A DNA stretch of 36,768 nt from a bacterium (GTDB taxonomy: Bacteria > Patescibacteriota > Minisyncoccia > UBA6257 > UBA9933): the NCBI GenBank assembly GCA_021791445.1, contig JAJYWO010000016.1, positions 1 through 36,768 on the forward strand, read 5' to 3'. Under the pieces are notes generated by a model. It was given only the letters and a program-made list of their open reading frames with translations. It was not told the origin of the DNA and made no database searches. Positions 3,678 to 26,004 of the stretch are shown here, piece by piece (the stretch's first letter is position 1; each line of letters begins with the position of its first letter). The position numbers were made by a program, and so were the translations under genes.

Positions 3678-5357
3678 ATGAAAAAATTCTTTTCCAAAAA
3701 CCTTACTACTAACTGCTTACTGCTTACTGCTATTATAATAATAGCCGCTTTTTTACGCCTTTACAATATAACCGGATTGCCGCCCGGACTTTATCCGGAT
3801 GAAGCAATGAACGGCAATAACGCGCTGGAAGCTATTTCAACGGACAATTTTAAAGTTTTTTATCCGGAAAATAACGGCCGCGAAGGCTTGTTTATAAATA
3901 TTCAGGCCATATCAATCGCCTTATTCGGCAATTTCCCGTGGGCGCTGCGAATTGTGAGCGCGTTTTTCGGAATTTTAACAGTATTGGGAATTTATTTTTT
4001 AACAAAAGAGTTATTCGCCGGTCGCCTATTTCCTACCGGAACCGGCCGTCCGCTCGCTCCAGCGGCGAGCGGCGGCCTTGACTCTCGCTCCAATGGTCCC
4101 GCCTTCGGCGGGAACCAAGCCCATTGGAGCTCCGAGACATTCCGCACGGAAACAGACGGCCGGCTCTTTTATGTTGAAAGCATATCTTTATTAGCCGCCT
4201 TTCTAACCGCAACTTCATTTTGGCACATCAATTTTTCTCGCATTGGTTTTCGCGCGATAATGGCGCCATTCTTTCTGACTTGGGCAATTTATTTTTTATT
4301 AAAATCCTTAAATTCAACATTAACGACGTCCGACGTCGTTAATGTTCTAAAAGCTAAAAGCCCTGGCCGGACAAGCTATAAGCTAAAAGCTATTTTAGGA
4401 GGAATTTTTTACGGTTTAGGATTTCATTCTTATATAGCCTATCGCGCCACTCCGCTTTTGATTTTAATAATCATCGCTCTATATTGGTTTAAAAATCGCG
4501 GTTGGCAAATACGCAAAAAGCTTTTACTTTCTACTTTATACTTTATACTTTTCACCATTATCGTCGCCGCTCCTCTGGGATTATATTTTTTGAAAAATCC
4601 CCAAGATTTTATGGGCCGAACAACCCAAGTTTCGATTTTTAATTCACCAACTCCGCTGAAAGATTTGGGGGGGAATATCTTAAAAACCGCGGGAATGTTT
4701 AATTTCAGCGGCGATTATAATTGGCGGCACAATTACGCCGGCAAACCGCTGCTATTTTGGCCGGTGGGAATACTTTTTATTATCGGCGTCATAATGTCAA
4801 TCCGCCGCTTATCTTCTGAAAGCATAATTTTATTCAGCTGGCTAATCATCGCCGCTCTGCCTATTGTTGTTTCCAATGAGGGCCTGCCGCACGCCTTGCG
4901 CGCGATTATTATGATTCCGCCGATATTTATTTTGGCGGGATTCGGCGGAATTTATATTTATGAAAAGATAAAAAACACTGCTCTCATCAATGAGAGCAGT
5001 GTAAGAATAAAATTTCTGCGCTTGGCTACGGCGGTTTTTTTGATAATTTTGATTATCCAAGGATACAAATCTTATTTTATTGACTGGGGGAAAAATCCCA
5101 ATGTCCAAGGCGCGTTTGCGTCGGATTATGTCCAAATCGGCCGTGAATTAAACGCTTTACCGAAAGAATTGCCAAAATATGTAATTGTGGAAGCCGGCGG
5201 CGTTAATGTGCGCGACATTCCTATGCCGACGCAAACCGTAATGTTTATCACCGACACTTTTACGCCGGAAAAACAAAAAGAAAAAAATATATTTTACGTT
5301 TTACCGAATGAAAAAAATAATATTCCAATAAATAGCTATACGATTTCACTTCACTGA
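3678..5357 (+). CDS. polytopic membrane glycosyltransferase (GT39/ArnT-PMT-like)
   Basis: N-terminal TM followed by LRLYNITGLPPGLYPDEAMNGNNALEA; many TM segments. Confidence 0.85.
   Translation: MKKFFSKNLTTNCLLLTAIIIIAAFLRLYNITGLPPGLYPDEAMNGNNALEAISTDNFKVFYPENNGREGLFINIQAISIALFGNFPWALRIVSAFFGILTVLGIYFLTKELFAGRLFPTGTGRPLAPAASGGLDSRSNGPAFGGNQAHWSSETFRTETDGRLFYVESISLLAAFLTATSFWHINFSRIGFRAIMAPFFLTWAIYFLLKSLNSTLTTSDVVNVLKAKSPGRTSYKLKAILGGIFYGLGFHSYIAYRATPLLILIIIALYWFKNRGWQIRKKLLLSTLYFILFTIIVAAPLGLYFLKNPQDFMGRTTQVSIFNSPTPLKDLGGNILKTAGMFNFSGDYNWRHNYAGKPLLFWPVGILFIIGVIMSIRRLSSESIILFSWLIIAALPIVVSNEGLPHALRAIIMIPPIFILAGFGGIYIYEKIKNTALINESSVRIKFLRLATAVFLIILIIQGYKSYFIDWGKNPNVQGAFASDYVQIGRELNALPKELPKYVIVEAGGVNVRDIPMPTQTVMFITDTFTPEKQKEKNIFYVLPNEKNNIPINSYTISLH
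4042..4163. repeat. composite palindromic element carried in frame in the GT39-like gene
   Basis: Outer arms CCGGCCGTC/GACGGCCGG; inner hairpins CCGCTCGC/GCGAGCGG and CTCCAATGG..CCCGCC-TTC-GGCGGG..CCATTGGAG. Confidence 0.8.
4316..4346. repeat. 31-bp perfect palindrome (15-bp arms, 1-nt centre)
   Basis: AACATTAACGACGTC-C-GACGTCGTTAATGTT. Confidence 0.9.
4975..5002. repeat. perfect inverted repeat (13-bp arms, 2-nt loop) inside the GT39-like gene
   Basis: ACACTGCTCTCAT-CA-ATGAGAGCAGTGT. Confidence 0.9.
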
Positions 5358-7036
5358 GATGACGGGGGCGCAAATTCTCCGGTTGGATATTGCATTTGTC
5401 CTTGTGGCGGCATTTGATAATCTTGCGGCAAATAATTCTGCGGCGCTTGCCGTATTATCTGCTGCTGCATTATTTGTTGAATCATTTCCGGATTCGGAAT
5501 AATTCCCTGCGGCGTTATTCCTTCGGGAATTTTTATTCCCTCGGGCAGTTGTATTCCTTCCGGCATTAATTTTTGCAATATTTCTTTATTTAACATTTCT
5601 CCCTGAAAAAATGGCTGCGCTTCCTGAGGTTGAAACGGCATTGGTTGATTTTGCGGCATTTGCTGATTTTGCGGAATGCCGCATTCTTCCCGATGCTCAA
5701 TGCAATATTTTTGGCATTCTTCCGGAGAAGAACAACCTCCCGGACCTCGAAATTCACCCTGCGGCGGCATTATTTGTCCTTGCGGCCCTTCGCCAGGACC
5801 GCCAGGCATTCTTGGCGCGCCTTCTGGCGGTTTTGGCATAAATTGTTCAAAACAATTTTTCATTTGTTCGCCAATTTGCGGTCCCGGAGTCAATGTTCCT
5901 TCTCTAATCTTTTCTATAATTTCCGTTCCTATTGACGACTCTAAACAACTTTTTACTTCCGGCGGCGCCATATCGAAACCCTCTTTCATTTTCTCCATTC
6001 CCTGCTTCATATTTTTAATTTCTTCCGCCGGAATCAACCCGTGCTCCTTGGCAAAATTAAAACAAATTTCTTGGTTGTCCGAATTATTACAAAACGCCTC
6101 GCATTGCTCTTTCCCCTTGCAATCGCCAGGTCCCTTGCCGCCGGTTTTTCTAAACATTTCCGCTTCTTCCGGCTTCATAAAACCGGCTTTAATGGCGAAA
6201 TTGGCGCATTCTTCCGCATGCGATTCATCGGCGCAATACGCTTCGCACTGTTCTTTGCCTCTGCAGCCTCCGGGCATTTCACCTTTCAGCATCAAAGGCA
6301 TTATTTTACGCGCGTTTTCCGCTTCTTCAGGAGGAATAAATCCGGCGGCCACGGCAAAATTCAAACATTCTTCCATATGTTCCGTTTGAGAACAATAAGC
6401 GTCGCACTGTTTTTTGCCGCGGCAATTTCCCGGCGGTTTAATGCCGGATTTCATCGCTTGCGCCGCTTTTTTGGCCTCAGTTAATTCTTCCGGAGGAATA
6501 AATCCGGCTTTTTCGGCGAAAGCAAGGCATTCTTCCATATGCTCCGGATTATCGCAATACGTTTCACAATCGCTTTTTCTCTTGCATCCACCCGGAAGCT
6601 GCGCGCCTTCTTTCAGCGCCTTGGCAACTTTTTTCGCTTCTTCCAATTCATCGGAAGAAATTAAATCGTTTTTCTCGGCAAACGCCAGACATTCGTCAAT
6701 ATGAGCATTATCGTCACAATACGCCTCGCATTCGTTTTTCCCCTGACATCCGCCCGGCCCTTCGTCTATTCTGGCAAATTGCTTGGCTTGCTTGACTTCT
6801 TCTTTGGAAATTAAATCATGCTGTTCGGCGAAATTAATGCAAGGAATCATATTATCTTTCACTTCGCAGAAATTTCGGCAAGCGATTTCATCTTTGCAAT
6901 TTCCCAATTCTTTTACCGGATAAGAAATATTTTCTATCTGCGCCTGAACGATTATCAAAGAACTGACAAAAATCCCCAAGCCGACAATAATCGCGAGAAG
7001 AAAAAATTTTTTATATTTTCGCGTTTTTGTAATCAT
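5351..7036 (-). CDS. secreted/anchored Cys-rich repeat protein with Pro/Gln-rich C-terminus
   Basis: N-terminal signal/TM helix; six C-x5-C-x3-C-x8-C repeats plus one degenerate C-x5-C-x3-C-x6-C; P/Q/M-rich tail. Confidence 0.85.
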   Translation of the reverse strand: MITKTRKYKKFFLLAIIVGLGIFVSSLIIVQAQIENISYPVKELGNCKDEIACRNFCEVKDNMIPCINFAEQHDLISKEEVKQAKQFARIDEGPGGCQGKNECEAYCDDNAHIDECLAFAEKNDLISSDELEEAKKVAKALKEGAQLPGGCKRKSDCETYCDNPEHMEECLAFAEKAGFIPPEELTEAKKAAQAMKSGIKPPGNCRGKKQCDAYCSQTEHMEECLNFAVAAGFIPPEEAENARKIMPLMLKGEMPGGCRGKEQCEAYCADESHAEECANFAIKAGFMKPEEAEMFRKTGGKGPGDCKGKEQCEAFCNNSDNQEICFNFAKEHGLIPAEEIKNMKQGMEKMKEGFDMAPPEVKSCLESSIGTEIIEKIREGTLTPGPQIGEQMKNCFEQFMPKPPEGAPRMPGGPGEGPQGQIMPPQGEFRGPGGCSSPEECQKYCIEHREECGIPQNQQMPQNQPMPFQPQEAQPFFQGEMLNKEILQKLMPEGIQLPEGIKIPEGITPQGIIPNPEMIQQIMQQQIIRQAPQNYLPQDYQMPPQGQMQYPTGEFAPPSSQ

Positions 7037-10369: not shown

Positions 10370-10469
10370 GTTCAGAAACTTTTTCGGGCCGCCGGGAATT
10401 GAACCCGGTTCTCACGCACCCGAAGCGCGTATACTACCGGTGTACTACGGCCCGAAAAAGTTTCTGAAC
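10370..10469. repeat. 22-bp perfect inverted repeat enclosing tRNA-Pro
   Basis: 10370-10391 GTTCAGAAACTTTTTCGGGCCG vs 10448-10469 CGGCCCGAAAAAGTTTCTGAAC. Confidence 0.93.
10384..10454 (-). tRNA. tRNA-Pro (anticodon CGG)
   Basis: CGGGCCG...CGGCCCG acceptor with C1:G72; loop TTCGGGT; D-stem GTAC/GTAT. Confidence 0.88.
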
Positions 10470-25152: not shown

Positions 25153-26004
25153 ATTGCTTGTTAGAAACTTAACATTGGCGTTCCCACGTAGCGAGCGGAT
25201 TTCCCGCACTACGCGAGCTCTAATGCATTTTTTGTTTTAATTTATACATTTTAATCAATCCTGATTTGGTTAAATGTTCGTTATTTTTTATCCGTTTCAT
25301 TAATCCACAAAATATCTTAAAATCCTTCACTTTTGATTTTAATTTTAATTTGTGTTTTTTGAAAAACGGCATAATTACATTTTCCAAATCTTCTCGTTTC
25401 GTTACTTCATAACGATAACAGTTTTGATGATTAAACCGGTTGTCTTTTTGAAAATAAACATTGCCGCAGCCAAAAAATTTTTTTAATTCATAGAGAATGT
25501 TTTTATCTTTCTCTATAAGTTTAATATAAAATCTTGGTTCCGCTTTTACGCGCCTTTTGATAATTTTATTTTCTTCCGGATTGCGGATAAAAACAGTAAA
25601 ACCGCCTTCTCCGTCAATTAAACCGACAATATAATCTGGATTAATCATTTTAGATTAGAGAGAATCCTTCTCCGCCATCAGGCGGATACTATAATTCAGC
25701 TGACTTCTGACGCTGCGTAAGTTTCATTATACTCCGCCTTAGGCGGAATAACAACGTCAGATCTCCCGAGGTTAGTTAATATTCTGTTCCAAACATCCTA
25801 AACGAGCTTTTTAAATAATCTTCTCCATCCTCACCACCCAATGATGAATCGATTAACTCTTTTTTTGTTTAGGCTGTCTTTTATCTCTTTGCCCTCCGCC
25901 GCCAATCTCGCGATCAACGACTGCAATTTGATTACGTTCCGATGACGAAATCGGAAGAATGGATTTTAACCATTTAGAACAATAACCTGCTCGGCGCGTT
26001 TATT
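25153..26004 (-). other. 16S rRNA intervening sequence (about 852 nt), tentatively group I
   Basis: Interrupts GUACUCAC | CGCCCGUC (near E. coli 1399/1400); encodes a LAGLIDADG-like ORF; weak group-I-like core motifs (CAAAUUGC; ACUAA/UAUAGU). Confidence 0.82.
25220..25648 (-). CDS. LAGLIDADG-family homing endonuclease (intron-encoded)
   Basis: YIVGLIDGEGGFTVFIR...RFYIKLIEKDKNILYELKKFFGCGNVYF. Confidence 0.88.
   Translation of the reverse strand: MINPDYIVGLIDGEGGFTVFIRNPEENKIIKRRVKAEPRFYIKLIEKDKNILYELKKFFGCGNVYFQKDNRFNHQNCYRYEVTKREDLENVIMPFFKKHKLKLKSKVKDFKIFCGLMKRIKNNEHLTKSGLIKMYKLKQKMH

Follow-up and report, generated by a model that had tools for sequence, protein, structure and literature searches.

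A palindromic segment within a glycosyltransferase gene is one copy of a dispersed family of structured elements in Candidatus Wolfebacteria and related Patescibacteria

Results

Host gene and fold of the palindromic segment

The window, the whole stretch of 36,768 nucleotides analyzed here, is contig 6 of an assembly with 18 contigs and a total of 480,895 bp. It contains a gene of 559 codons for a multi-pass membrane glycosyltransferase that has conserved orthologues in each of the 22 genomes of the bacterial family. The Pfam match of the protein is weak (PMT_2, E = 0.00078, under the family cut-off), and the label GT39 is therefore weakly suggested by Pfam. The gene contains a branched palindrome, across which the reading frame remains open as the earlier note had stated. 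The features of the locus are as follows.

3678–5357, plus strand: host gene, multi-pass membrane glycosyltransferase of PMT/GT39 type (open reading frame, weak PMT_2 match, orthologues, and AlphaFold)
4017–4165, plus strand: whole palindromic element including the outer stem (fold and covariance model)
4017–4033, plus strand: outer stem, site-variable, 5′ strand, pairing with 4148–4165 (fold)
4148–4165, plus strand: outer stem, site-variable, 3′ strand (fold)
4037–4041, plus strand: P1, CGGAA, paired with TTCCG at 4140–4144, closing stem of the three-way junction (consensus fold)
4044–4077, plus strand: P2 hairpin with a conserved single-base bulge, T4049, and the conserved apex CTCCAGCGG (fold and alignments)
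4083–4137, plus strand: P3 hairpin with the base TCTC/GAGA, a variable 10-bp stem (4087–4096/4121–4130), and an inner hairpin (4097–4103/4107–4113) (fold)
4114–4120, plus strand: conserved 7-nt bulge ACCAAGC, which is ACCATGC in one subfamily (alignments)
4316–4346, plus strand: second palindrome, 15-bp perfect arms and 1-nt center, in frame (sequence and AlphaFold)
4975–5002, plus strand: third palindrome, 13-bp perfect arms, in frame (sequence)

The earlier note described a 122-bp unit at 4042–4163 with 9-bp arms enclosing two perfect hairpins. The palindrome is real, and the arms, CCGGCCGTC at 4042–4050 and GACGGCCGG at 4155–4163, match exactly; both hairpins were also found, at 4050–4057/4065–4072 (8 bp) and 4087–4096/4121–4130 (10 bp), the latter with a nested 7-bp hairpin (4097–4103/4107–4113). 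However, these limits were too narrow and were dropped because the closing stem CGGAA/TTCCG continues outward to approximately 4017 and 4165, giving an element of approximately 145 to 150 bp, and in the family consensus the CCGGCCGTC strand pairs mostly inside P2 rather than closing the fold. The covariance model described below matched the window copy at 4021–4165 (154.3 bits, E = 7.7e-52). Folded as RNA, the 122 nt had an energy of −70.2 kcal/mol, compared with −47.3 ± 4.0 kcal/mol for shuffled sequences (z = −5.75; none of 200 shuffles was as good). The motif RLF, reported at both edges of the segment, is not a target-site duplication: other copies (NifS and the GT39 of genome G009) share it at the 5′ edge but lack it at the 3′ edge. 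In one subfamily, CTTG was seen to form a pseudoknot with the ACCAAGC bulge; by inspection, this pairing is not kept by subfamilies that have ACCATGC or CCTGCG instead, and the pseudoknot was rejected.

In the AlphaFold model of the glycosyltransferase (mean pLDDT of 79.9 overall), the insert residues 117 to 162 are a low-confidence loop between two helices with a pLDDT of approximately 35, and the insert is thus predicted to form a disordered loop of approximately 45 to 50 residues in the encoded protein. The palindromes at 4316–4346 and 4975–5002 are unrelated to the element; residues 218 to 231, with a pLDDT of <50, overlap with the 3′ part of the former. Elsewhere in the window, the minus strand of 5351–7036 encodes a 561-residue protein with approximately six repeats of the cysteine motif C.GK.QCEAYC...EECL.FA, and a 142-residue ORF at 25220–25648 carries the LAGLIDADG-like motif GLIDGEGGF, suggestive by eye of a homing endonuclease. 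A perfect 22-bp inverted repeat (10370–10469) flanks the tRNA-Pro gene (10383–10455) and lengthens its acceptor stem by approximately 14 bp; none of the window's seven other tRNA genes shows this.

Copy number and taxonomic distribution

A search of the host genome, as the earlier note had proposed, revealed a second full copy, in frame in the gene for the cysteine desulfurase NifS. It is 76% identical to the 122-bp unit and shares strand and reading frame with it; the peptides encoded by the GT39 and NifS copies are RLFPTGTGRPLAPAASGGLDS...SETFRTET and RLFSDGTGRSLAPAASAALDL...SETFRTKT. A third copy in this genome is weak. Using a covariance model (R1) built from an alignment of 14 copies (A2), we detected approximately 75 copies in 14 of the 22 genomes of the family, with a maximum of 20 in one genome. 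Related genomes had between 0 and 20 copies each, the genomes compared being mostly metagenome assemblies. No match was found in the near-complete genomes G008 and G017 to G020 of the same family, which served as negative controls. In the order, R1 matched in at least 131 of 245 genomes from more than 20 families, with no more than 12 candidates scored in each genome, and across a sample of the phylum it matched in 28 of 382 genomes. Near-identical copies occupy many sites within single genomes (G006 and G025), showing recent amplification.

The core motif ACCAAGC-N10-TCCGAGACATTYY was then scanned against 85,462 bacterial and archaeal species and gave 26 stretches. All but six of these carry a clade in their title, and every such title is from Patescibacteria, namely, Wolfebacteria, Terrybacteria, Liptonbacteria, Jorgensenbacteria, and other Parcubacteria; Rickettsiales did not appear among the titles of these 26 exact matches. 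Rfam gave nothing convincing over the element either at E values up to 5 or at gathering scores, and a known RNA family was therefore rejected. These results place the window segment in a dispersed family of palindromes carried by Candidatus Wolfebacteria and its relatives.

Empty, filled, and inverted sites

An empty site had been suggested as a check and was readily found: among the 22 GT39 orthologues, only those of G000 and G009 contain the element, and most others have the sequence KELF-x-IALLSSF across a short loop. Neither outcome that the earlier note had named as refuting its reading, conservation of the segment in all orthologues or its absence elsewhere in the genome, was thus observed. 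Comparable pairs occur in other genes. In PrfB, only G011 is filled; the site is empty in its congener G010 (91% identical) and likewise in the remaining aligned orthologues. In MnmA, G010 and G006 are filled, whereas the congener G011 has a short loop. In NifS, the element is present in G000, G009, G012, G006 (twice), and G025 of another family, and several other genomes are empty; the G009 copy is inverted relative to that of G000, with similar outer arms.

Unrelated palindromes lie in exactly these loops in GT39 of G014 and G005, NifS of G002, G005, G011, and G014, and MnmA of G003 and G009. The GT39, NifS, and MnmA loops are permissive and have been repeatedly invaded by different palindromes. 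Such unrelated inserts, of several kinds, were noted in the NifS, GT39, and MnmA loops of different Wolfebacteria species at loci L116, L126, L127, L133, L144, L157, L251, and L262.

Copies inside genes

We found 20 copies in frame in 13 gene families, with gene identity assigned by Pfam and NCBIfam: GT39 (two copies), NifS (six), MnmA (two), and one each in RecG, Tgt, PrfB, LigA, TsaD, FolD, ParB, a ComF-type phosphoribosyltransferase, phosphomannomutase (PMM), and an aminotransferase. Relative to the gene, 13 are in the same and seven in the opposite orientation, and several frames are used. All 20 are stop-free and have a length divisible by three, although in-gene copies were identified through their open frame and broken ones may be under-counted. 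Inspection by eye of ten intergenic copies tight to their flanking genes showed that each lies between two different genes. In intergenic copies, a mean of 2.8 of the six frames is open; since the length must also be a multiple of three, approximately one in six random insertions would be harmless. The observed 20 of 20 is far beyond this unconstrained expectation, which points to translation of the copies and selection on them. In the AlphaFold model of NifS, the insert (residues 94–129) is again a low-confidence loop, and the remainder of the model matches solved cysteine desulfurases with a TM score of approximately 0.8 to 0.9.

Covariation of the stems

All copies share one three-way-junction fold with conserved loop and bulge motifs, and CTCCAGCGG, CTCTCG, ACCAAGC, and TCCGAGA are common to copies in unrelated genes and distant families. 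In the alignment, 94% of cells were paired and 30 of 41 pairs showed double changes; the covariation score was 0.558, compared with 0.183 for shuffled controls and at most 0.14 for slid-structure controls. In copies from distant genomes, 38 of 41 pairs covaried with 520 double-change cells, although fitting this alignment to the model biases it in favor of the model. The unpaired motifs show a conservation (0.93 bits) at least as high as that of the stems (0.69 bits).

Double changes outnumbered single changes by 24:1 and 47:1 in the element, compared with 11:1 in tRNAs. The G-U share of pairs was 1.9% in one analysis and approximately 1.1% in another, compared with 5.1% in the tRNA stems of the same loci; this control is of modest size and tRNAs have position-specific rules, so the depletion is only suggestive. 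Together with the use of both orientations in genes, the scarcity of G-U pairs favors a fold that pairs as DNA. Template switching between inverted repeats is described as homogenizing arms and inverting spacers (PMC8604942) and, in another report, as creating and maintaining hairpins (PMC8794818). This process can explain both the covariation restricted to Watson–Crick pairs and the inverted NifS copy. However, it would be expected to erase bulges, yet the bulges are conserved, so some selection on structure is probable, most simply for mobility.

Discussion

Alternative explanations

The reading that survives best among the alternatives is that the element is cargo of an IS481-type MITE, moved only by the corresponding transposase, and that in-gene copies are remnants that have lost the terminal repeats. 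The terminal motif TGTAAGAAnnnnnnGCGTTGTTTACA borders 15 copies on one side or on both, with scores of 16 to 20 out of 20, compared with six of 3000 random windows scoring 17 or more, which were drawn from the same loci so that some may be the motif itself. Tail-to-tail pairs of the element lie between TGTAAGAAnnnnnnGCGTTGTTTACA repeats, and a similar repeat precedes transposase genes for which NCBIfam gives IS481 as the best match, with scores under the curated cut-off. However, all 15 repeat-bearing copies are intergenic, whereas the window copy and every other in-gene copy lack terminal repeats. Moreover, exact TGTAAGAAnnnnnnGCGTTGTTTACA matches occur in only three of the 22 family genomes and are absent from G000 and from the 20-copy genome G006, and the recent copies in G006, G025, and G560 have, by eye, no common ends of that kind. 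We therefore consider exclusive carriage by such a MITE unlikely. As a separate observation, an IS481-like transposase gene is broken, directly downstream of the HSDHT motif, by a perfect palindrome of 38 bp (L185, approximately 1900–1960; G021:C2).

If the element were a regulatory or terminator RNA acting in cis, which reading frames capture now and then, the intergenic position of the majority of copies would fit, as would a mild excess of the same orientation relative to flanking tandem genes (25:12). Nevertheless, both orientations occur between tandem genes as well as within genes, copies lie at unrelated places including the middle of genes, and their number differs between related genomes from none to 20. 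A regulatory role of this kind is very improbable.

The conserved branched fold, the conserved unpaired motifs, and the strong covariation also resemble a functional RNA, such as an intron or ribozyme that splices itself out or is otherwise excised and never reaches the protein. An intron needs no open frame, but all in-gene copies have one; seven of them are oriented against transcription, G-U pairs are depleted, and Rfam gave no match to a known intron family, all of which leaves excision scarcely credible. We likewise give very little credence to immobile palindromes growing in place through template switching: variable outer stems that pair almost perfectly, unrelated palindromes in the same loops of other species, and the published arm homogenization and spacer inversion (PMC8604942 and PMC8794818) would suit such growth, but it cannot yield common sequence, and the motifs shared by unrelated genes and distant families, together with near-identical copies at many sites of one genome, largely refute it. 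Template switching in place may still shape the arms.

Proposed mechanism

We conclude, with a probability of roughly 0.8, that the window segment is a copy of a mobile DNA element that is palindromic, structured, and dispersed in Patescibacteria, and that this copy lies in frame in a variable loop of the GT39 protein, is translated as a disordered loop, and behaves as a selfish hairpin in the manner of the Rickettsia palindromic elements (RPEs). The element would insert in frame into the variable loop of the membrane glycosyltransferase gene and would be translated with its host gene; the in-gene copies that survive would be those that keep the frame in tolerant surface loops. The fold probably acts as DNA, in the form of a hairpin or cruciform, given the near absence of G-U pairs and the variable orientation relative to transcription. 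Template switching during replication may homogenize the arms and could invert the spacer, as between the NifS copies of G000 and G009. A putative structure-recognizing enzyme, or an occasional ride inside IS481-type MITEs, could move the element.

The outer stems vary among copies yet pair almost perfectly, and G006 has a subfamily that lies within a second one. These features suggest insertion into or next to pre-existing palindromes. At loci L074, L086, L089, L091, L084, L097, and L088, we observed the small palindromes CCTGCCTGCCGGCAGGCAGG, CCAAGTCTGACTTGG, and CCCTCACCCTTGTTCAAGGGTGAGGG nested inside element copies, and a d-type copy inside a c-type copy. No target-site duplication was found for the element copies. 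Mobilization by Y1/RAYT transposases was rejected: Y1 transposases do not track the element, being absent from the complete 20-copy genome G006, and no copies lie near them. A broader proposal, which we regard as tentative and on balance doubtful, is that the branched hairpin represents a phylum-wide class of mobile DNA for which Patescibacteria would have a dedicated enzyme that recognizes the hairpin in single-stranded or cruciform form. Such DNA may prefer existing palindromes as targets, to judge by the nested subfamily and by outer stems that seem to derive from the insertion site, and would supply new loops to essential proteins.

Comparison with known systems

In-frame palindromic invaders are mainly known from Rickettsia and Wolbachia and have so far been regarded as a peculiarity of these genera. 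The presence of a structured family throughout a patescibacterial order, where it occupies essential genes in genomes of approximately 0.5 Mb, makes the phenomenon a recurrent one. The copies provide approximately 20 natural experiments on the tolerance of proteins to random inserts, with the same site empty, filled, or inverted, and the Watson–Crick-only covariation is a test case for selection on a fold against template switching in replication. In practice, the element can account for odd insertions in predicted proteins of Patescibacteria. In the open-access literature searched, we found no account of such an element in this phylum.

REP/BIME sequences, associated with RAYT (Y1) transposases, are likewise palindromic, dispersed, and found in tail-to-tail pairs. 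However, REPs are 20 to 40 bp long and extragenic (PMC3733652), whereas the present element is approximately 145 to 150 bp, is also intragenic, and shows neither correlation with nor proximity to Y1 transposases. Bacterial MITEs and the enterobacterial RU/ERIC elements are small and non-autonomous, have intragenic copies, and can fuse in frame (PMC10969869 and PMC2759123); some copies of our element bear IS481-type terminal repeats, but the in-gene copies do not, and the conserved structure is internal. Perfect inverted repeats with both arms coding occur in protein-coding genes of Nematomorpha mitochondria (PMC6649704), a likeness limited to their position within coding genes, because they are not reported there as a dispersed element with common motifs. 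The Wolbachia palindromic elements are, according to their description in the literature (PMC3767692), short palindromes, some of which lie inside genes.

The closest likeness is to the Rickettsia elements, as the earlier note had proposed in principle. RPE-1 to RPE-3 and others (Ogata et al. 2000, 2002, as summarized in PMC3767692 and PMC10969869) are dispersed palindromes of approximately 100 to 150 bp that occur within mutually unrelated housekeeping genes, keep the frame, and lie in loops exposed to solvent, and different elements sometimes occupy one site of orthologues (PMC3767692 and PMC10969869). The present family similarly consists of dispersed palindromic repeats of approximately 100 to 150 bp, in frame in unrelated protein genes with empty orthologues present and different palindromes at the same orthologous site; its inserts in GT39 and NifS are predicted to lie in loops, on the evidence of low-confidence AlphaFold regions. 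By contrast, it belongs to a different phylum, across which it keeps its three-way junction, its bulges, and the covariation of its stems; its exact core motif gave no match titled Rickettsiales among 85,462 species; and it is used in both orientations and several frames. Given this likeness of features and the different host range, the element appears to work like an RPE rather than to be one. It would thus represent a new and widespread family of RPE-like, protein-invading palindromes, with a probable spread as mobile hairpin DNA.
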